From a virus, in the IMG/VR virus record IMGVR_UViG_3300030328_001035, positions 1-23,364 of that record: DNA of 23,364 nt. The stretch is one strand, 5' to 3'. Under the pieces are notes generated by a model. It did no database searches. It saw nothing but the letters and a program-made list of their open reading frames with translations, and was not told where the DNA came from. Made by a program: the position numbers and the translations under genes. Below, one piece after another: positions 4,400 to 20,421 of this stretch; the first letter of the stretch is position 1; each line of letters begins with the position of its first letter.

Positions 4400-5325
4400 T
4401 ATTTATCGTAATCTTCCATGTATTGCTGTTGTGAAGCAGTCATTTGTGGAGGAGTAATAAAAGGATTACCACCACTAAATCCAGATTGCGTATGTGGATT
4501 TGCTATTCCACCTCCTGTTTGCATAGTGCCAACATTACCTGGATTTTGTGTGTAATTAACAAAATTATTATTGTTTGGATTATTTGAACTAATGACAACA
4601 TTACCACCACCAAAATCTTCTCCACCTCCATAACTGCCACCAGTTGATCCATCATAATATGGTACTTCGGCTTCATTTGTTGTAGCAGGAGGAGTTAAGA
4701 AAACATTAGGCTCTTGGTTTAAATCATAAATAGGATTGTTGTTATTATCATATTGACCTGTAAAATAACCTCTTCTGCGAAGTTCTATATCCATAGCGTC
4801 TCTTCGCATTTGATTTTGTTTTCCAAAAGGTAATTGAAAAGCTAAAGGCATAAATTGACCACCAAGAGTAACTTGGCTTCCTTTACTATCAAGAAAACCT
4901 AAAGGACTATTTTTTAACCATCCATCTTTTAAATAATCAATTAAATCTTCGTCAGATAAACCTTTCATTGCATCAATAGAATAATATTTTCTTGGCTCTT
5001 CTTGATTATCGTCTCTATCTCTATTTTCATCATAAGCTGATCTACCAAAAGTTTCTATTGGCTGACATATACCATCAACTAACATATATCCTTCTTGGCA
5101 AGGATCAACAGGGGTGTTTGGTTGAGAAAAATCTAATTGTGGATTTGGAAAATCTGCACTAGGATCAAGAGTTCCTGCTTTTTCTTGCTCTGTTCGTAAA
5201 TCATAAATTGGATTACGAAATTTACCCGCACTATTAACATTAGGTGTGGCATTCATTTTACCACCAAGATAATCATTAATAATACTTTGAGCTTTTGAGC
5301 TTTGCATAAATGGGGTAAATGCCAT
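4399..5325 (-). CDS. Gly/Asn-rich virion-associated protein, unknown function
   Basis: A 308-residue protein of low complexity. The first 70 residues contain MQSSKAQSIINDYLGGKM; a small cysteine motif CQEGYMLVDGICQP follows near residues 76-89 and could form one disulfide. The central part has a short helical block (GLSDEDLIDYLKDGWLKNSP) and the last 100 residues are dominated by Gly, Asn, Pro and Gln (GGSYGGGEDFGGGN). Similar Cys-Pro-Glu-Gly-Tyr motifs occur in proteins of marine podoviruses that I cannot assign. It shares one base with the portal stop and with the next start, so it is made in step with the portal. A flexible internal or tail protein is inference. Confidence 0.5.
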   Translation of the reverse strand: MAFTPFMQSSKAQSIINDYLGGKMNATPNVNSAGKFRNPIYDLRTEQEKAGTLDPSADFPNPQLDFSQPNTPVDPCQEGYMLVDGICQPIETFGRSAYDENRDRDDNQEEPRKYYSIDAMKGLSDEDLIDYLKDGWLKNSPLGFLDSKGSQVTLGGQFMPLAFQLPFGKQNQMRRDAMDIELRRRGYFTGQYDNNNNPIYDLNQEPNVFLTPPATTNEAEVPYYDGSTGGSYGGGEDFGGGNVVISSNNPNNNNFVNYTQNPGNVGTMQTGGGIANPHTQSGFSGGNPFITPPQMTASQQQYMEDYDK

Positions 5326-7289
5326 TAATTTAATCCTTGTTCTAAAATTTTAGATGCTAATTTTTCTTTTTCTAATTCATTAACATTTTGATCTTTAACA
5401 ACTTGCGTTGCCAATTTTTGTTCATCAAGTTCTAATTTTCTATTTTTATATTCCATGTCTGCCATTGCCTTTTGTTTACTAATTTCTATTTGTTGAGCTG
5501 CAAGTTGCAGAGCTGGATCTTGTTTATCTTCTTTAGGTGGTTGAGGTGGTTGTTGAGATGGATCGTTAAAAAATTGCGTTGCATCTTTATAACCACTATT
5601 TTGCAGATACGCCTCAATTGTGTTGTATATAGTTTGAGGAGTAACCATTCCCATCCCGCCCATGTTAATCATTTTTTCTTGAACATTTAAAACTTGTTGT
5701 AATACTTCTAATCGTTGATCTTGATTACCTGTTCCCAATCCTACTTGAACCGTGCAATCATAATGATCAGTCCATTCTCTCGGATTCATTGGAATAAATT
5801 GACCTCGTAATTTAACAATTCTTTCTTGATCTTGGTATTCACAAACAACAGCTAAAATATTTTTAAATATATCTTTTACACCATCAGCAAAACTTCGAGC
5901 AACAAGTTCAATTCTTTGTGTGCTAGAGTTCATCATTTGATTAACACTTTGTGCGGTCGTATGTGATTTGTTAATCGTATCTGGGTTTAAACCCATTAAT
6001 TGATTTGGTACACCAGATCTTTTTTCTTTAAGTTGATCTATTTTTTGCATCATAGCCAAACCTTCATTTAAAAAATTTGGTTGAGGCATTGGAGTAACAG
6101 CGTTTGGAGATTTAACTCTTACAATTCCACCAGGTCTTGTAGTAAGTAAATCATCTAAGTTTGCTTGACCATCTACTACGACAGTTCTTGCGTTTCCTAA
6201 TGTGTACATATTATCAAGCGACTGTCTCATTATTGCAGTACTCATCATCTGTACATCAGCCAATAGATCATACATGGATAAACCAAAAAATCTAAATGGC
6301 ATAGGAACTGCCACACACATTGCAAAAGGAAGATGATTTATTTCTTCATTTTCCAATATGTTATAATTGTTATAACCACTACCACCTACAATAATTTTTC
6401 TAAGTTCTGCAATACCATCTCCATCAACATCTACATTCATATAACATTCTGTTATTTGAACAACACGCATAGAAGGATCAATATTAGAAACTTCAATATC
6501 CATAGTTGGATCATCATAAGATCGTCTAGTCGTAGCTTCCGTGTTAAAGACTTGATCTTCCGCACTTGGCAAATTTTCAACATCTTTTTTATTGAAACCC
6601 ATATCTAATAATTCAGATACAGTTTTGGTAACTCTATGAGCTATGAAGTTACAATCTTTTAAGTTTTTTGCTCTTGGAGAAACCAATATTTCTTCTGGTG
6701 GAACTGGGTCTATTTGGCATCTTCCATATTCTTTTGTTCTTCTAAGTTCTACATCATAGAAAATACCATCAACTTCTTCAATAGTTTCTATTTCTAATAT
6801 TTCAACATCACTATCAATTAATAATGCTTGATATTGCATTTCGTCTAAATGTTTATAAGACTCTTTCTTTTGTTTTTTAGATGTTTTCCAATAGATTTTA
6901 CAAAAGCCATTCTTTTGAAGTAGTGCAGTCTTAAACATAGAATGCAAAATAGAAAAACCATCATTATCACGATTAAAAATAAAGTTACAATAGTCTGTAA
7001 TTTGCTCTGCGTATGGCACATCTTCTGGACCTTGAGGCTCAAAGTTAACCATCTTATCGCTTTGCGTAAACATTCGCATTAGACTAGGCAACATGGACTC
7101 AACAACTTCCAATAAGTCTTGGCTGACCACACTTGATCTACCTTCTACCTCATTTCCTAGTGGCTCTCCTAAATAATATTTAAGAGCATCCTCTCGTTGT
7201 TTTGATAGATCACTAGAATAAAATCCTAAAGAGCTAGAAATCTCTTGAGAGATTAAAGCTAGTAATCTTGATTTTGATAATTTTGCCAT
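5325..7289 (-). CDS. Portal protein
   Basis: A 654-residue protein with the features of podovirus portal proteins: an N-terminal region with RSSVVSQDLLEVVESMLPSL and the stretch QNGFCKIYW (the hydrophobic crown-to-wing start), the stem segment around MYDLLADVQMMSTAIMRQSL, and RPGGIVRVKSPNAVTPMPQP. The C-terminal 130 residues are Gln/Glu/Lys-rich and helical with a Pro-Gln stretch (DPSQQPPQPPKED), consistent with a barrel. Twelve copies form the DNA channel at one head vertex and bind TerL during packaging. It starts 8 bases after the methyltransferase gene. The family match is strong, with normal length for this group. Confidence 0.92.
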   Translation of the reverse strand: MAKLSKSRLLALISQEISSSLGFYSSDLSKQREDALKYYLGEPLGNEVEGRSSVVSQDLLEVVESMLPSLMRMFTQSDKMVNFEPQGPEDVPYAEQITDYCNFIFNRDNDGFSILHSMFKTALLQKNGFCKIYWKTSKKQKKESYKHLDEMQYQALLIDSDVEILEIETIEEVDGIFYDVELRRTKEYGRCQIDPVPPEEILVSPRAKNLKDCNFIAHRVTKTVSELLDMGFNKKDVENLPSAEDQVFNTEATTRRSYDDPTMDIEVSNIDPSMRVVQITECYMNVDVDGDGIAELRKIIVGGSGYNNYNILENEEINHLPFAMCVAVPMPFRFFGLSMYDLLADVQMMSTAIMRQSLDNMYTLGNARTVVVDGQANLDDLLTTRPGGIVRVKSPNAVTPMPQPNFLNEGLAMMQKIDQLKEKRSGVPNQLMGLNPDTINKSHTTAQSVNQMMNSSTQRIELVARSFADGVKDIFKNILAVVCEYQDQERIVKLRGQFIPMNPREWTDHYDCTVQVGLGTGNQDQRLEVLQQVLNVQEKMINMGGMGMVTPQTIYNTIEAYLQNSGYKDATQFFNDPSQQPPQPPKEDKQDPALQLAAQQIEISKQKAMADMEYKNRKLELDEQKLATQVVKDQNVNELEKEKLASKILEQGLN

Positions 7290-12863: not shown

Positions 12864-13009
12864 TGGCTTTGTTTGGAAATATGGCAGGAGCTACCATACA
12901 AAAAAAACTTGCTCGAACTTTTGATAAAAAACACAAACCACAATTTACAAAAAAAATTAAATCAAAAAGATTAAGAAAAAAATTAAAGGAACTTAATGCC
13001 AACAGGTAA
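12863..13009 (+). CDS. Short, highly basic protein, 48 residues
   Basis: A 48-residue peptide beginning MALFGNMAGATIQKKLART and ending in a Lys/Arg-rich tail (KKIKSKRLRKKLKELNANR). It starts on the last base of the preceding stop and overlaps the nuclease gene by 14 bases, the normal style of this operon. The strongly positive C-terminus suggests nucleic-acid binding. No family recognised. Confidence 0.45.
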   Translation: MALFGNMAGATIQKKLARTFDKKHKPQFTKKIKSKRLRKKLKELNANR

Positions 13010-13283
13010 TTACATATTAAATGATAAAAAAGTTCCTAGTGTTACTACTATCATAGGTAGATTTAAAAATGCACAAGGTTTGATAATTTGGTCAAATAAA
13101 CTTGGACTAAAAGGAATTAACTATTTTGATGAATTAAACAAGGCTGGAGATATTGGAACTAATTTACATGATTTGGCTGAGCTTCATATTTTAAAAAAAG
13201 AATATCAATTGCCAGATGATCCAATTGTTAAAAATTGTTTTAATCAATTCTTAGAATGGTGGAAGGATTTTAGCAATGAGTAA
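12996..13283 (+). CDS. N-terminal part of a RecB/Cas4-like phage exonuclease (split gene)
   Basis: A 95-residue protein. VPSVTTIIGRFKNAQGLIIW followed by SNKLGLKGINYFDELNKAG and DIGTNLHDLAELHIL is the helical N-terminal region of phage PD-(D/E)XK exonucleases of the RecB/Cas4-like type (the GTxLHDLxE block includes the motif I histidine). In related proteins this runs straight into the catalytic core within one chain. Here the frame stops at TAA 13281-13283 and the core follows in the next gene, +1 shifted, overlapping by eight bases. The start has a good AAAGGAA site. Either two subunits reassemble the nuclease, or a single-base change split it. Confidence 0.7.
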   Translation: MPTGNYILNDKKVPSVTTIIGRFKNAQGLIIWSNKLGLKGINYFDELNKAGDIGTNLHDLAELHILKKEYQLPDDPIVKNCFNQFLEWWKDFSNE

Positions 13284-13644
13284 TTTTGAGATTATTTGGA
13301 CAGAGAAAAAAATGGGTAGCATTAAATTAGAATGTGGAGGTTGTCCTGATTTGCTAGTTAGAAAAAATGGAGAGTACATACTTATAGATTTTAAAACCTC
13401 AAAAGATTTTTATAGTGATATGTTAGTTCAGTTATCGGCTTATGGATATTTAATAAAAGAAACTGAAGGCATTGAGATTGATAAAGCTATCATTGTTCGA
13501 TTTCCAAAAGATGATGATAAATTTAAAGTAAAAGAATTTTCAAAAAAAGATTTAGCTCTAGGTTTAAAACAATTTAAAATTTTAAAAAAGGCTTTTGATT
13601 TAGATAAAGAATTAAACAAACTAATGAAAGGTAAAAAGAAATGA
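13276..13644 (+). CDS. Catalytic part of a RecB/Cas4-like PD-(D/E)XK exonuclease (split gene)
   Basis: A 122-residue protein carrying the nuclease core: GGCPDLLV with D25 (motif II), LIDFKTSK with D38 and K40 (motif III) and QLSAYGYL with Q52 and Y56 (RecB motif). These residues coordinate metal and cut DNA. It has its own ribosome site, AAGGA eight bases before ATG 13276, so it can be made independently. The partner half is the gene just upstream. Together with the ERF annealase directly downstream (overlap of four bases) it would form an exonuclease-annealase recombination pair comparable to lambda Red. Residues are intact, so activity is plausible if the N-terminal half associates. Confidence 0.82.
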   Translation: MSNFEIIWTEKKMGSIKLECGGCPDLLVRKNGEYILIDFKTSKDFYSDMLVQLSAYGYLIKETEGIEIDKAIIVRFPKDDDKFKVKEFSKKDLALGLKQFKILKKAFDLDKELNKLMKGKKK

Positions 13645-14831: not shown

Positions 14832-15094
14832 TGAACAAAAAAAAGACACCTTCTCTTTTTGGAGAAGAATTTGAGAAAGAGTTTTGGCAAGATGAATGGG
14901 AAGGAATGCCTGAGTTTGTTCAAGAGCAAGAAGAGTCATATCACAAATTAATTATACGATTTAGAAATGAGGAAGATTTGCAAGATTTCGCAACAAAGAT
15001 AAGTCAAAAAATAAACAATAGGACTAAAAGTATTTGGCATCCCAAATTAACTTTTAAAGATCATTTTAGTAAGAGGTATATTGATGATAAATAA
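14831..15094 (+). CDS. Conserved phage protein of unknown function (WxxEWxxMPEF)
   Basis: An 87-residue protein with the recurrent phage pattern FWQDEWEGMPEFVQE, then a strand-helix unit KLIIRFRNEEDLQDFATKIS and a final TKSIWHPKL. I recall this arrangement from many phage and plasmid genomes, often near DNA-modifying enzymes or ParB-like proteins, but without a known activity. It overlaps the DnaA-like gene by one base and the methyltransferase by 11. No catalytic motif is visible. Cytoplasmic. Confidence 0.6.
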   Translation: MNKKKTPSLFGEEFEKEFWQDEWEGMPEFVQEQEESYHKLIIRFRNEEDLQDFATKISQKINNRTKSIWHPKLTFKDHFSKRYIDDK

Positions 15095-15827
15095 TTTTTT
15101 AAATTTACAAGGTATTAATAAAACTAAAATTATAAGATTATTTAATGTTAACAAAAAAACTAATACAGTAACAGGAGTTAGTGCTTTAGTAAGATTAGAA
15201 ACATCAGATGAATTTGTTATAGAAGAAATATTTAAAAGGAAAACTTACAATAAATTAAATATTTTACCTCAAGACATTGTTTTAGATATAGGTTTAAATA
15301 TTGGAGCTTTTACTATTTTAGCTTTACAAAAAGGTGCAGTTGTTCATTCATACGAAGCAGAAGAAGATAATTTTAAAATAGCTCAACATAATATTAGAAT
15401 AAATAATTTAGAAAATAATTATACTATTAACAATAAAGCAATTATTGGCAATGATGATAAAGTTAGACCTTTTTCAATTAATGTTAAAAGAAATAAAGGA
15501 GGTCATTCATTAGTTGCAAAACGAGGTAGAGATACAGTTAATGTAAATTGTATAAACATTAACGAGGTATTAGAAAAAGTTAAACCTACAATAATTAAAA
15601 TGGATATTGAGGGTGGAGAGTATGAATGTTTAAAAGCTGTAAAAAGTTTTGAGGGAGTTAGAGAATTAATTTTAGAATTTCATCACGCACATTTAAACGA
15701 TATTAAAACGAGAGATAAATATAAAGAAATAATATCTATTTTAAAAAATCATTTTAAAGAAGTTTCTTATAAAGAAGAGCCTAAAGGGGCATGGGTAACA
15801 TTAATATATTGTAAAAATGACTCCTAA
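15084..15827 (+). CDS. FkbM-type SAM-dependent methyltransferase
   Basis: A 247-residue enzyme. The SAM-binding motif is VLDIGLNIGAF (residues 66-76), the acidic strand-2 end is SYEAEEDN, and the family hallmark KMDIEGGEYECL is at 172-183, as in FkbM/Methyltransf_21 proteins, which usually O-methylate sugars or other small hydroxyl groups. The start is ATG 15084 with AGAGG upstream, rather than the TTG three bases earlier. It overlaps the glycosyltransferase gene by 11 bases, so the two probably act in one pathway: a sugar is added and then methylated, or a surface or DNA modification is decorated. The substrate cannot be told from sequence. A host-derived gene is possible. Confidence 0.85.
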   Translation: MINNFLNLQGINKTKIIRLFNVNKKTNTVTGVSALVRLETSDEFVIEEIFKRKTYNKLNILPQDIVLDIGLNIGAFTILALQKGAVVHSYEAEEDNFKIAQHNIRINNLENNYTINNKAIIGNDDKVRPFSINVKRNKGGHSLVAKRGRDTVNVNCININEVLEKVKPTIIKMDIEGGEYECLKAVKSFEGVRELILEFHHAHLNDIKTRDKYKEIISILKNHFKEVSYKEEPKGAWVTLIYCKNDS

Positions 15828-16701
15828 ATATCCAATTTACATAGTTTCTAAAGGAAGATGGGAGTCTAGATTGACAAGCAAATCTTTAGAAAGAATGAAA
15901 GTATTTTATTATATTATAGTCGAAGAACAAGAATATGAAGAATACACTAATGTTATTGATAAAGAAAAAGTTTTAATTTTACCAAAAGAATATCAACTTA
16001 ATTATGATGTATTCAATGATGAAATAGGAAAAGGAAGAGGCACTGGTCCAGGTGCAGCTCGTAACTTTGCATGGGATCACTCCATAGGATTAGGAGCTAA
16101 AAGACATTGGGTTTTAGATGATAACATTTATGATTTTTATAGATTAAATCGCAATGCAAAAAACATAGTACAAACTGGAACTATATTTAGATGTGCAGAA
16201 GATTTTGTTGATCGTTATACAAATGTTTTAATTAGTGGATTTAACTATTGTAAGTTTTGTTTAGCTAGTGAAAAATATCCTCCATATCTTTTTAATACTA
16301 GGATTTATTCTACTTTACTTATTGATAATAAAACAAAATATAGATGGAGAGGTCGCTATAATGAGGACACAGATCTATCACTAAGAGTTTTAAAAGATGG
16401 AGATTGCACTCTTCAATTTAATGCATTCCTCCAAGAGAAAGCCACTACACAAAGAATTAGAGGAGGGAACTCTAAAGAATTTTATGATGAAGAAGGCACA
16501 TTAAATAAATCTAAAATGCTAGAAGAAATGCATCCAGACTTAGCTAGAGTTACATGGAGATTTAATAGGTGGCATCATTTCGTAGATTACAAACCTTTTA
16601 AAAGAAACAAGCCAATTAAAGTTGAGGGTTTATTCATTCCAAAGGGCATTAATAATTATGGAATGAAAATGATTAACATAAAGGAATTAGCAAATGATTG
16701 A
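15817..16701 (+). CDS. TET-associated glycosyltransferase (TAGT/GREB1-like) family protein
   Basis: A 294-residue GT-A-type glycosyltransferase. The N-terminus PIYIVSKGRWESRLTSKSLE, the segment TGPGAARNFAWDHSIGLGAK, the metal-binding HWVLDDNIYDF (DDN at 101-103), and a second acidic motif NEDTDLSLRVL at 182-192 match the TAGT group, first described beside TET/JBP oxygenases in phages, where these enzymes are proposed to glycosylate hydroxymethylated bases in DNA. No TET, JBP, cytosine C5-methyltransferase or nucleotide hydroxymethylase is seen here. It may modify DNA made elsewhere in the genome's pathway, or protein or surface sugars. Overlaps the FkbM gene by 11 bases. Family is well supported; substrate is inference. 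Confidence 0.75.
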   Translation: MTPKYPIYIVSKGRWESRLTSKSLERMKVFYYIIVEEQEYEEYTNVIDKEKVLILPKEYQLNYDVFNDEIGKGRGTGPGAARNFAWDHSIGLGAKRHWVLDDNIYDFYRLNRNAKNIVQTGTIFRCAEDFVDRYTNVLISGFNYCKFCLASEKYPPYLFNTRIYSTLLIDNKTKYRWRGRYNEDTDLSLRVLKDGDCTLQFNAFLQEKATTQRIRGGNSKEFYDEEGTLNKSKMLEEMHPDLARVTWRFNRWHHFVDYKPFKRNKPIKVEGLFIPKGINNYGMKMINIKELAND

Positions 16702-18214: not shown

Positions 18215-18404
18215 AATGTATGAAATAAAAGATGTTGCCATTAGGCTTAATAGACATCCTCGAACTATGAGGAAAGATATTAAAGAGTTACAATTCAAAT
18301 TTCCCAAAGAGTCTGCTTTACATACGAAGATTGGTAAACGATTAAGATTTACCGATCAACATATTGAAAGGATAATTGAATTATGCTCCTCACAGCCAAA
18401 GTAA
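18195..18404 (+). CDS. Excisionase/MerR-like helix-turn-helix DNA-binding protein
   Basis: A 69-residue protein. MYEIKDVAIRLNRHPRTMRK is a winged helix-turn-helix start of the MerR/excisionase type and KIGKRLRFTDQHIERIIELC is its wing and following helix. Such small proteins act as excisionases or transcription regulators; no integrase gene is visible, so a regulator is more likely. GAGG lies just before ATG 18195; ATGs at 18207 and 18216 are alternatives. It is the last gene before the 168-bp leader of the GHKL gene, which it could control. Confidence 0.7.
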   Translation: MKLKMNKMYEIKDVAIRLNRHPRTMRKDIKELQFKFPKESALHTKIGKRLRFTDQHIERIIELCSSQPK

Positions 18405-18572
18405 TATATAGTTAAATTTATCCTAGAAAACTGGGGTAAAATAGTTAAAAATAATTCTAGCATTCCCTCGACACAAATGCTAATAATGTTATGTAAAGTA
18501 ATAAATTGGGAAATTTGGTATCTTTATGTAACAAAAGGGAACATAATGAGCCATCTAACTAGGGAGGGTTAA
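18405..18572 (+). promoter_or_regulatory. Leader and probable promoter region of the GHKL-protease operon
   Basis: A 168-bp gap in an otherwise gapless rightward operon. It contains a 7-bp hairpin (TAGCATT 18458-18464 with AATGCTA 18476-18482), the sequence TTGGGAAATTTGGTATCTTT near 18507 that recurs in pieces in the terS-terL gap, and a strong ribosome site (GGGAGGG) before ATG 18573. No U-run follows the hairpin. Separate control of the downstream three genes is likely. Confidence 0.5.
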
Positions 18573-20021
18573 ATGAAAAATAGTTGGTTTGAAATAGACA
18601 AAAAAGGATTGCAACAAATTCAAAATGATAAAAATAAATTTTTTATTATTAAAGAATTAGTTAGTAATTCTTTTGATGAAGATATTAACAGATGTGTTTT
18701 AACTTTAGATTTTGATAAAGATAAAGAATTATTTGTTAATGTTCTTGATGATAGCAAAGATGGTTTTAAGGATTTAAAAGACTCTTATACTATGTTTGCT
18801 CCAAGTTATAAAAAAGGCATTGCTACTAAAAGAGGTAGATTTAATGTTGGAGAAAAATTTGCCTTATCAATGTTTAGAACAGCTTGTATTACTTCAACCA
18901 CAGGCAGAGTAACTTTTTTAGAAGATGGTACTCGAAAAAAAACTTACACTAAAATTGATAAAGGTACTTTATTTATGGGTAAGTTGCCAAAAATAAATAA
19001 ATCTCAATATGAAGATTTAATTAATCAATCGCAAAATATTATTCCACCTAAAGATGTAGAATTTTTAGTTAATGGAAAAGTTATAGATAGATTGCCTATT
19101 TATAAATCTTTTATTGAGGAACTTCCAAGTATCACTAAAGATGATGAAGGAAATTTGGTTAAGACTAAAAGAAAAACAGAAATTGAATTGTTTAAAACAG
19201 ATGAACATTTTATTTATGAAATGGGAATTCCTGTTGTATCAACTGATATTGGTTTTTCAATTAATGTTAATCAAAAAATTCCATTAAGTAAGGATAGAGA
19301 TAATGTAAGTCCAAGTTATTTGAAAAAATTAAAGACTTATATTCTTAACCATACTTCATCTGATTTAAGTGAAGAAGAAACTAAATCATCTTGGGTACAA
19401 GAAGCATTAGAAAATGCAGATACTCATGCAGTTAAAGATGTTATTGATGTAAGATATGGAGATGATGCAGTTGTCTTTGATGTTAAAGACCATGAAGCTA
19501 ACAAGAAGGCTTTTGCAGATGATAAAAATGTCATAACTGGTGGCTCTTTTAATTCTCAAGTTTGGGATAATATTAGAAAAACTAGAGATGATTATGAAGA
19601 TTTTGCAAAGCCAAGTGGCTCAATAGGTAAATATGCTAGTCCTAATATGAGTGGAACTAGACCTGCTGAACTTTTGGATAAATCTAAAATTACAAAAGAA
19701 ATGAAACAAGTAATTTCTTTAGCAAAAAAATTACACAAAAAACTTTTTAATCAAGAGTTGAATGTTGAAATTTTTAATGAAAAAGGTTTAGGTGGAAATA
19801 GATTGTTAGCCACTTATTGCAAAGGTTATTCTGGATCTGATTTGAGTTTTTATTATAAAACTTTAGGTAAGGACTGGTTTAATTTAAAAAATAATAAAGT
19901 TAAAATTATGGAATTAATTATCCATGAGTTTGGACATTTTTATAGTGGAGATCATTTAAGCGAAAGATATTATGATGGTCTTTGTGAAATTGGAGCTAAA
20001 CTTTATTGTAAGGAGGGTTAA
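18573..20021 (+). CDS. GHKL ATPase fused to an HExxH metalloprotease
   Basis: A 482-residue protein with two recognisable ends. The N-terminus is a Bergerat-fold ATPase as in Hsp90, MutL and Topo VI-B: N-box ELVSNSFDE (E28, N32, D35), G1-like box LDDSKDGF (58-65) and G2 box GRFNVGEK (88-95). The middle has IPLSKDRDNVSPSYLKKL, which recalls the transducer domain that follows such ATPases. The C-terminus contains a zinc-protease site, MELIIHEFGHFY with HEFGH at 451-455, and a following E472 in LCEIGAKL as a possible third ligand. ATP binding may gate proteolysis or substrate unfolding. Targets are unknown: host defence, host regulators or phage assembly. It has its own leader. Domain calls are strong, the function is inference. 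Confidence 0.8.
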   Translation: MKNSWFEIDKKGLQQIQNDKNKFFIIKELVSNSFDEDINRCVLTLDFDKDKELFVNVLDDSKDGFKDLKDSYTMFAPSYKKGIATKRGRFNVGEKFALSMFRTACITSTTGRVTFLEDGTRKKTYTKIDKGTLFMGKLPKINKSQYEDLINQSQNIIPPKDVEFLVNGKVIDRLPIYKSFIEELPSITKDDEGNLVKTKRKTEIELFKTDEHFIYEMGIPVVSTDIGFSINVNQKIPLSKDRDNVSPSYLKKLKTYILNHTSSDLSEEETKSSWVQEALENADTHAVKDVIDVRYGDDAVVFDVKDHEANKKAFADDKNVITGGSFNSQVWDNIRKTRDDYEDFAKPSGSIGKYASPNMSGTRPAELLDKSKITKEMKQVISLAKKLHKKLFNQELNVEIFNEKGLGGNRLLATYCKGYSGSDLSFYYKTLGKDWFNLKNNKVKIMELIIHEFGHFYSGDHLSERYYDGLCEIGAKLYCKEG

Positions 20022-20201
20022 ATGGCAAGAAAAAGAAAAGGTAAACCAACTTGGCAAAATTTATGGCATAAAAAACCAGAAGATGTTTCTGATAAAGCAT
20101 TTGATAAATGGTTAAATTACCAAGAAAAAATACAAGATGGTTATGAAAAAGCTATTAACAAAATAATACTGCAAAGAAAAAACTTAGATAAAAAAGAATA
20201 G
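20022..20201 (+). CDS. Small basic protein following the GHKL-protease
   Basis: A 59-residue protein (MARKRKGKPTWQNLWHKKP onward) with a Lys/Arg-rich N-terminus, a helical middle (AFDKWLNYQEKIQDGYEKAI) and a basic end. The ribosome site AAGGAGGGTTAA repeats almost exactly the one before the GHKL gene, suggesting matched expression. The start codon directly follows the GHKL stop. A cofactor or nucleic-acid-binding partner of the large protein is possible; no family recognised. Confidence 0.55.
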   Translation: MARKRKGKPTWQNLWHKKPEDVSDKAFDKWLNYQEKIQDGYEKAINKIILQRKNLDKKE

Positions 20202-20214
20202 TTAGGAAAGTTAA

Positions 20215-20421
20215 ATGAAATTAATAAATAATATTAAAAGAATTATAGACGAAGAAAGAAACTGGTTTTTACATACAGAAATTGTAAGTGAAGAAGAATT
20301 AAATAAATTAGATCGTATAAATAACAATAAAGATTATGATTCAGAGTTTAGAAAAAAAATAGATGAAAGGGTAAAAGAAATTATAGATGATATTGAAACA
20401 AGAATTTTAAAATTATTTTAA
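20215..20421 (+). CDS. Small helical protein ending the rightward operon
   Basis: A 68-residue, charged, fully helical protein (MKLINNIKRIIDEERNW onward, ERVKEIIDDIETRILKLF at the end). It follows the basic 59-residue gene by 13 bases and has an AGGAAAG ribosome site. Its stop overlaps the stop of the convergent leftward gene by four bases and no terminator hairpin is visible at this junction. Unassigned. Confidence 0.5.
   Translation: MKLINNIKRIIDEERNWFLHTEIVSEEELNKLDRINNNKDYDSEFRKKIDERVKEIIDDIETRILKLF

Follow-up and report, generated by a model that had tools for sequence, protein, structure and literature searches.

The window, the whole stretch of 23,364 nucleotides analyzed here, is part of a 25.8-kb viral record, and its portal protein is 37–40% identical to marine phage portals, e.g., those of Methylophilales phage Venkman and Pelagibacter phage HTVC106P. 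The structural genes are on the minus strand. Apart from them, on the plus strand, lies a gene for a putative fusion of a GHKL ATPase with a metalloprotease, preceded on the same strand by exonuclease, Erf annealing protein, methyltransferase, glucosyltransferase, HNH, and excisionase-like genes. The exonuclease (phrog_298) is split into two overlapping ORFs (12996–13283 and 13276–13644) that lie in different frames and cover consecutive portions of the family, owing to a frameshift, programmed slippage, or a sequencing error. Two genes at 15081–16701 encode a methyltransferase and, next to it downstream, a protein with a match to the beta-glucosyl-HMC-alpha-glucosyltransferase family (phrog_842, E 6e-53), and this pair may serve DNA or glycan modification. 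The features of the fusion gene are as follows.

18547..18575, plus strand: cassette boundary, made up of the 3' arm of a hairpin linker, the ribosome-binding site, and the start codon; common to unrelated accessory genes in other phages
18573..20021, plus strand: predicted GHKL ATPase-metalloprotease fusion gene, 482 amino acids, ATG start, TAA stop; homologues of the same length and architecture
18573..18986, plus strand: GHKL/Bergerat ATPase domain, residues 1–138 (AlphaFold2 model; Foldseek matches to Hsp90, MORC, TopoVI-B, and MutL; Pfam HATPase_c_3 in 63/74 members)
18654..18680, plus strand: N-box, residues 28–36 (E28, N32, D35; E28 the presumed catalytic base), conserved among 85 relatives
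18747..18764, plus strand: G1-like box, residues 59–64 (D59, G64), in 85/85
18831..18857, plus strand: G2-like lid loop RGRFNVGEK, residues 87–95 (G88, G93, and K95 in 85/85)
18987..19367, plus strand: transducer (S5-like) domain, residues 139–265 (AlphaFold2 model; alignments of the Hsp90 and MORC classes cover the region)
19272..19307, plus strand: transducer motif QKIPLSKDRDNV, residues 234–245 (Q234 and R242 invariant), resembling HtpG DLPLNVSREILQ
19368..19607, plus strand: helical middle region, residues 266–345 (AlphaFold2 model)
19608..19688, plus strand: lower-confidence linker, residues 346–372 (pLDDT about 77 across residues 351–370)
19689..20018, plus strand: predicted C-terminal mini-zincin domain, residues 373–482 (AlphaFold2 model; WLM, YgjP, SprT, and M48 profiles; Foldseek zincins)
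19923..19955, plus strand: predicted zinc site H451-E452-x-x-H455-x5-H461, invariant in a 74-member alignment (A5) and in 104/104 homologues spanning the site

Examination of the sequence bore out the reading frame, length, strand, and motif positions given in an initial annotation of this DNA. The N-box E28-x3-N32-x2-D35, the G1-like D59...G64, the G2-like R87-G-R-F-N-x-G93-E-K95, and H451-E-F-G-H455 are present, and their conservation argues against chance occurrence; the transducer-like "RDN" segment corresponds to R242-D-N. A third histidine, H461, lies ten residues past H451 and had been missed. Conservation was assessed in a non-redundant set of 85 relatives (<80% identity), which came from viral contigs, from plasmids, and from bacteria belonging to many phyla. 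N32, D35, D59, G64, G88, G93, K95, Q234, and R242 were found in 85/85 and E28 in 84/85, and at the C-terminal site H451, H455, and H461 were each found in 83/85 and E452 in 84/85. The exceptions were L030, which lies at a contig edge, L116, which carries a frameshift, and L124, which is homologous in its N-terminal part only. Both active sites were intact in every one of the 104 aligned homologues covering both, at identities down to ~21%, and thus the homologue survey suggested in the initial annotation revealed no loss of the HExxH histidines and glutamate among these 104.

The Bergerat fold and a transducer following it, as anticipated, are seen in the whole-chain AlphaFold2 model (pLDDT 92.6, pTM 0.80; input with 73 relatives). 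Foldseek searches of the PDB returned full-length Hsp90/TRAP1 at the top (E about 1e-12, TM about 0.43), followed by MORC, TopoVI-B, and MutL, and searches of viral models returned one close homologue and many RIIA proteins. Against Pfam HATPase_c_3 (PF13589; cut-off 25), the window protein scored 21.6 bits and a huge-phage relative (L012) 28.7 bits, above the cut-off; with the A5 profile, weak matches to MutL and sacsin were obtained. The transducer motif QKxPLNxxRDxV and HtpG DLPLNVSREILQ are paired in a forced alignment that is not significant alone; the arginine of DLPLNVSREILQ contacts ATP. Direct Hsp90 homology was considered and rejected (hhalign to HtpG gave a probability of 0.3%, with only the short PLNxxR motif aligned). 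Membership of the RIIA family was rejected as well: the window protein has no RIIA match by PHROG or sequence, no RIIA-named PHROG was found for its relatives, and the similarity is one of fold only. No PHROG, NCBIfam, or PADLOC model matched the window protein, and the PADLOC match of its relatives was limited to the GHKL part of TmtA. Conservation and the structure model together identify residues 1–265 as a predicted Hsp90/MutL/MORC-type unit of GHKL ATPase and transducer, in which all residues for hydrolysis are conserved.

With Hsp90 as the nearest whole-chain fold match, the protein might be pictured as an Hsp90-like chaperone joined to a maturation protease for phage structural proteins, and some phage zincins have been proposed to act in virion maturation (PMC7824862). 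We consider this most improbable: the fusion gene is on the strand opposite to the structural genes of the window, and relatives occur on bacterial plasmids and contigs, with no capsid linkage.

The isolated C-terminal domain (residues 361–482, 122 residues) was modeled by AlphaFold2 with a pLDDT of 95 as strands followed by the HExxH helix. Foldseek searches with it returned weak but consistent zincin matches, namely ZMPSTE24, TTHA0227, SPRTN (6mdw), Ste24p, and MATCAP; the best E was 0.016, none was below 0.001, and several baculovirus nucleocapsid chains fell in the same score range. The top matches are zincins, as expected of this part, but their scores are weak, and because the best E is only 0.016, the fold assignment draws chiefly on motif, topology, and similarity to known families. 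Of these families, WLM was the top Pfam match (24/74 members, best E 8.6e-4), followed by DUF4932, Reprolysin, M48, M64, YgjP, and SprT; the WLM similarity is under the Pfam cut-off (L014, 12.2 bits against a cut-off of 26). Sequence searches of the PDB gave weak matches to myroilysin and Wss1p. The spacing of +10 from H451 to H461, found in 97/104 homologues, is that of the Wss1 alignment and is usual in WLM/Wss1 and metzincin peptidases. H461 is likely to be the third zinc ligand, which gives H451, H455, and H461 as predicted ligands and E452 as the predicted base. The domain might instead bind metal without being a protease, e.g., in a structural or regulatory site, in keeping with the weak fold scores and with the EExxH of a neighboring paralogous family (see below). 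Such a role is very unlikely, as the general-base Glu452 is invariant together with the three histidines and a purely structural site needs no such glutamate. Overall, linked conservation, profile matches, and structure models strongly support the fusion of GHKL, transducer, and zincin-type domains.

The best C-terminal profiles include WLM/Wss1 (24/74 members, with Wss1p in the PDB), SPRTN (6mdw) is among the fold matches, and the third histidine is spaced as in the Wss1 alignment. These matches are consistent with a protease for DNA-protein crosslinks or roadblocks on the phage genome, in which a GHKL clamp on DNA would let a Wss1-like protease digest stuck proteins and clear the way for replication or recombination. 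MORC, MutL, and TopoVI clamps bind DNA, and the fusion gene shares its strand with the exonuclease and Erf genes. We nevertheless regard this role as rather unlikely, since repair would predict a steadier genome context than the sporadic, cassette-like one of the fusion gene, and since the Wss1 similarity is under the Pfam cut-off.

Profile scans revealed 176 relatives in viral contigs, 80 of which were fetched, ranging from marine fragments to contigs of >400 kb. A further 32 were found in bacterial or archaeal assemblies (Planctomycetota, Verrucomicrobiota, Pseudomonadota, Actinomycetota, Chloroflexota, Acidobacteriota, and others); several of these loci are in draft bins, and therefore some may be phage contigs. 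One 485-kb phage record and three plasmids carry full-length homologues with 32–39% identity, and three Picosynechococcus plasmids carry proteins similar at the N-terminus. In the 485-kb phage (L012, 4203–5567), a further HExxH protein (454 amino acids, "HEMGHH") is encoded shortly upstream of the fusion gene. Viral and cellular sequences were intermixed in a quick tree, with 14 changes of the virus/cell label by parsimony compared to 25 for shuffled labels, and at least four changes forced by supported branches. The fusion had been described as a phage one; with relatives on plasmids and bacterial contigs, mixed with viral ones in the tree, it can no longer be called phage-specific. The sequences indicate that the fusion protein moves between viruses and cells.

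Comparison with a close copy (L018) revealed 98.6% identity across 18561–20014 and 73–83% identity or no homology outside it. This fall in homology indicates that the fusion gene moved as a cassette, and in relatives homology ends at the gene or a few bases beyond it. In another locus (L019), a ~1.1-kb stretch with an integrase (4669–5779) sits between the excisionase-like ORF and the presumed leader of the fusion gene; it is missing at window positions 18398–18404, and the window phage seems to be without this integrase. The 168-nt gap in front of the gene (18405–18572) is real, but because of the position of the integrase stretch it reads as the spacer of an integrase gene and not, as first annotated, as the gene's own leader. 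By these sequence comparisons, the fusion gene is exchanged alone, like a cassette, beside an integrase. An own promoter was also considered and rejected, as region scans gave fewer sigma-70-like sites than shuffles. Just 3' of the L019 fusion gene, on the minus strand, lies a second small metallopeptidase-like gene, encoding a 110-amino-acid protein with "VIHEMLH".

The ribosome site of the fusion gene is AGGGAGGGTTAA. The nearly identical sites ascribed to the gene and two small partners were found in part: only two positions, 18563 and 20012, carry the 13-mer GGAGGGTTAAATG, and the third ORF has a looser match. The small ORFs themselves (20022–20201 and 20215–20421) gave no useful family match in Pfam and PHROG searches. 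They exist in the window, yet they are absent beside the 98.6%-identical gene of L018, which is followed directly by a minus-strand ORF of 80 amino acids, and beside those of L019 and L003. The view of a self-contained module with two small partners is therefore not supported.

The 29 bases up to and including the start codon (18547–18575) recur exactly or nearly so in other phages, and in some of these the gene that follows them is an unrelated one. The 29 bases constitute the 3' arm of a hairpin linker, a stable one. The 22-base hairpin GGTGGCTCAATAATGAGCCATC was found in 61 viral stretches (window 18547–18575; L154–L215), with up to three copies per contig. In 59/59 testable cases the ORF upstream ends Val-Ala-Gln-stop inside the hairpin, and the ORFs downstream belong to 30 families of unrelated accessory genes. 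The hairpin resembles a connector that is reused to join one accessory gene to another in marine phages.

Clustering of the neighbors at 126 loci revealed no conserved partner: no family was common to more than 16 loci, and the commonest were ordinary phage genes. The neighbors of bacterial relatives include phage-like genes (UvsX, helicases, integrases, and thymidylate kinase), and the matches to defense genes near them were isolated, with no recurrent system. In two Picosynechococcus plasmids (L016, 7386–12660; L017, 7388–13859), a divergent GHKL-HExxH relative lies between genes for a diadenylate cyclase (DAC) and a CHAT-domain protease. These loci look like a second-messenger conflict operon; a literature search on diadenylate cyclase with CHAT and GHKL found nothing relevant.

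Some of these neighbors could fit a cell-side or prophage-borne anti-phage effector, in which the GHKL part would sense infection and the protease would kill or disarm, comparable to VcSduA with its nuclease. Relatives are found on plasmids and in bacterial genomes; one plasmid relative adjoins SIR2-HerA genes, an SNF2 helicase, and an integrase, and among the neighbors there are single matches to a CBASS cyclase, to a 2TM effector, and to a type I restriction enzyme. The divergent cyanobacterial relatives between DAC and CHAT genes and the L019 fusion gene next to its integrase would also agree with a defense role. We judge it unlikely, given that most copies found are in viral contigs, very large ones included, that no PADLOC model matches the window protein, and that the defense neighbors are isolated cases.

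A second family of ~480 amino acids adjoins the fusion gene in several phages and one planctomycete (L049, 7762–9204; L050, 8319–9743; L056, 7241–8677; L098, 3900–5291; L127–L152). In this paralogous family, a circularly permuted Bergerat domain is predicted from motif order only: G1 and G2 come first and the N-box (REFxSNAID) follows about 80 residues later. The C-terminus of the family carries EExxH...D[NST]SRDFQ. No Pfam match was found for the family, hhalign of the C-termini was weak, and the fusion gene lay within the fetched flanks of 6/26 of its viral loci. It is quite unlikely, though conceivable, that the fusion protein represents a new class of nucleotide-gated clamp proteases that is exchanged among phages, plasmids, and bacteria and that would, in some of the phages, form a two-component ATP-controlled proteolytic machine with this putatively permuted Bergerat EExxH neighbor.

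Both domains of the fusion protein are known singly. It shares the N-domain and middle-domain fold and the transducer PLNxxR with Hsp90/HtpG, whose C-terminal dimerization domain is replaced here by the zincin-like domain (residues 373–482). The clamp fold of GHKL plus transducer is that of MORC, MutL, and TopoVI-B as well, whereas the MutL endonuclease and MORC CW domains were not matched. HExxH is common to the Wss1/WLM, YgjP, and SPRTN mini-zincins, and the third histidine at +10 is of the Wss1/WLM type; to our knowledge, these mini-zincins are not fused to an ATPase domain. The zincin-like MPTases of polyvalent proteins are zincins of phages and plasmids that likewise occur in fusion with further domains, but their third ligand is Glu, in contrast to the invariant candidate H461, and a GHKL fusion is not mentioned (PMC5512222). 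T4 RIIA has a GHKL N-terminus and a variable C-terminus, and a role in conflict has been proposed for it (PMC7824862). As a phage GHKL ATPase with transducer it resembles the fusion protein, with many Foldseek matches, but the RIIA chains among these matches have about 600–1000 amino acids compared to 482, and no HExxH domain has been reported in them. In VcSduA, a bacterial defense protein of the Shedu type with a GHKL N-terminus, the ATPase is proposed to control a C-terminal hydrolase effector within one chain (PMC12137116), but this effector is a PD-(D/E)xK nuclease and not a zincin. A GHKL-zincin fusion is not covered by any family in Pfam, NCBIfam, PHROG, or PADLOC, and no published GHKL-metalloprotease fusion was found in the literature searched. 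The protein is thus a predicted GHKL-effector fusion with a mini-zincin as effector, undescribed in the libraries and literature searched. The retention of both active sites in every intact relative found suggests a family of nucleotide-controlled proteases that has not been described before.

From its sequence and model, the fusion protein is best read as a predicted nucleotide-gated protease. GHKL proteins with a transducer dimerize on ATP and open on hydrolysis, and from this we infer that the motion of the clamp gates the zincin. ATP binding would close the lid and clamp two N-terminal domains together; in the transducer, R242 and K235 would contact the nucleotide and pass the closure on through the helical middle region. 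Closure would then position or expose the C-terminal protease, which would cut the bound protein, and hydrolysis would reset the clamp. The clamp may select the substrate, either a protein or a protein on DNA. As an accessory conflict factor, the protein would cleave a host, rival-phage, or DNA-bound defense protein. The conflict-factor, DNA-clearance, and defense-effector readings share the same biochemistry and differ in the target. No constant defense or counter-defense neighbor was found among the neighbors of relatives; a gene that is accessory, exchanged, and located next to an integrase is more in line with a conflict factor than with housekeeping or a function in the virion, and by analogy VcSduA (PMC12137116) and RIIA (PMC7824862) may serve as precedents for GHKL-effector fusions in conflict. 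In our estimate, the chances are even that the protein is an ATP-gated protease with the role of an accessory conflict factor.

Bacterial ATP-dependent proteolysis is otherwise carried out mainly by AAA+ machines, and GHKL clamps (Hsp90, MutL, topoisomerases, MORC, and RIIA) couple ATP to the capture of DNA or protein. With a GHKL clamp and a zinc protease in a single chain, energy-controlled proteolysis would be achieved through another design. The protein is compact (482 amino acids), with an easy pair of active-site mutants. Since its effector domain is recognizable, it also offers a concrete way into the long-standing question of what RIIA and other phage GHKL proteins do.
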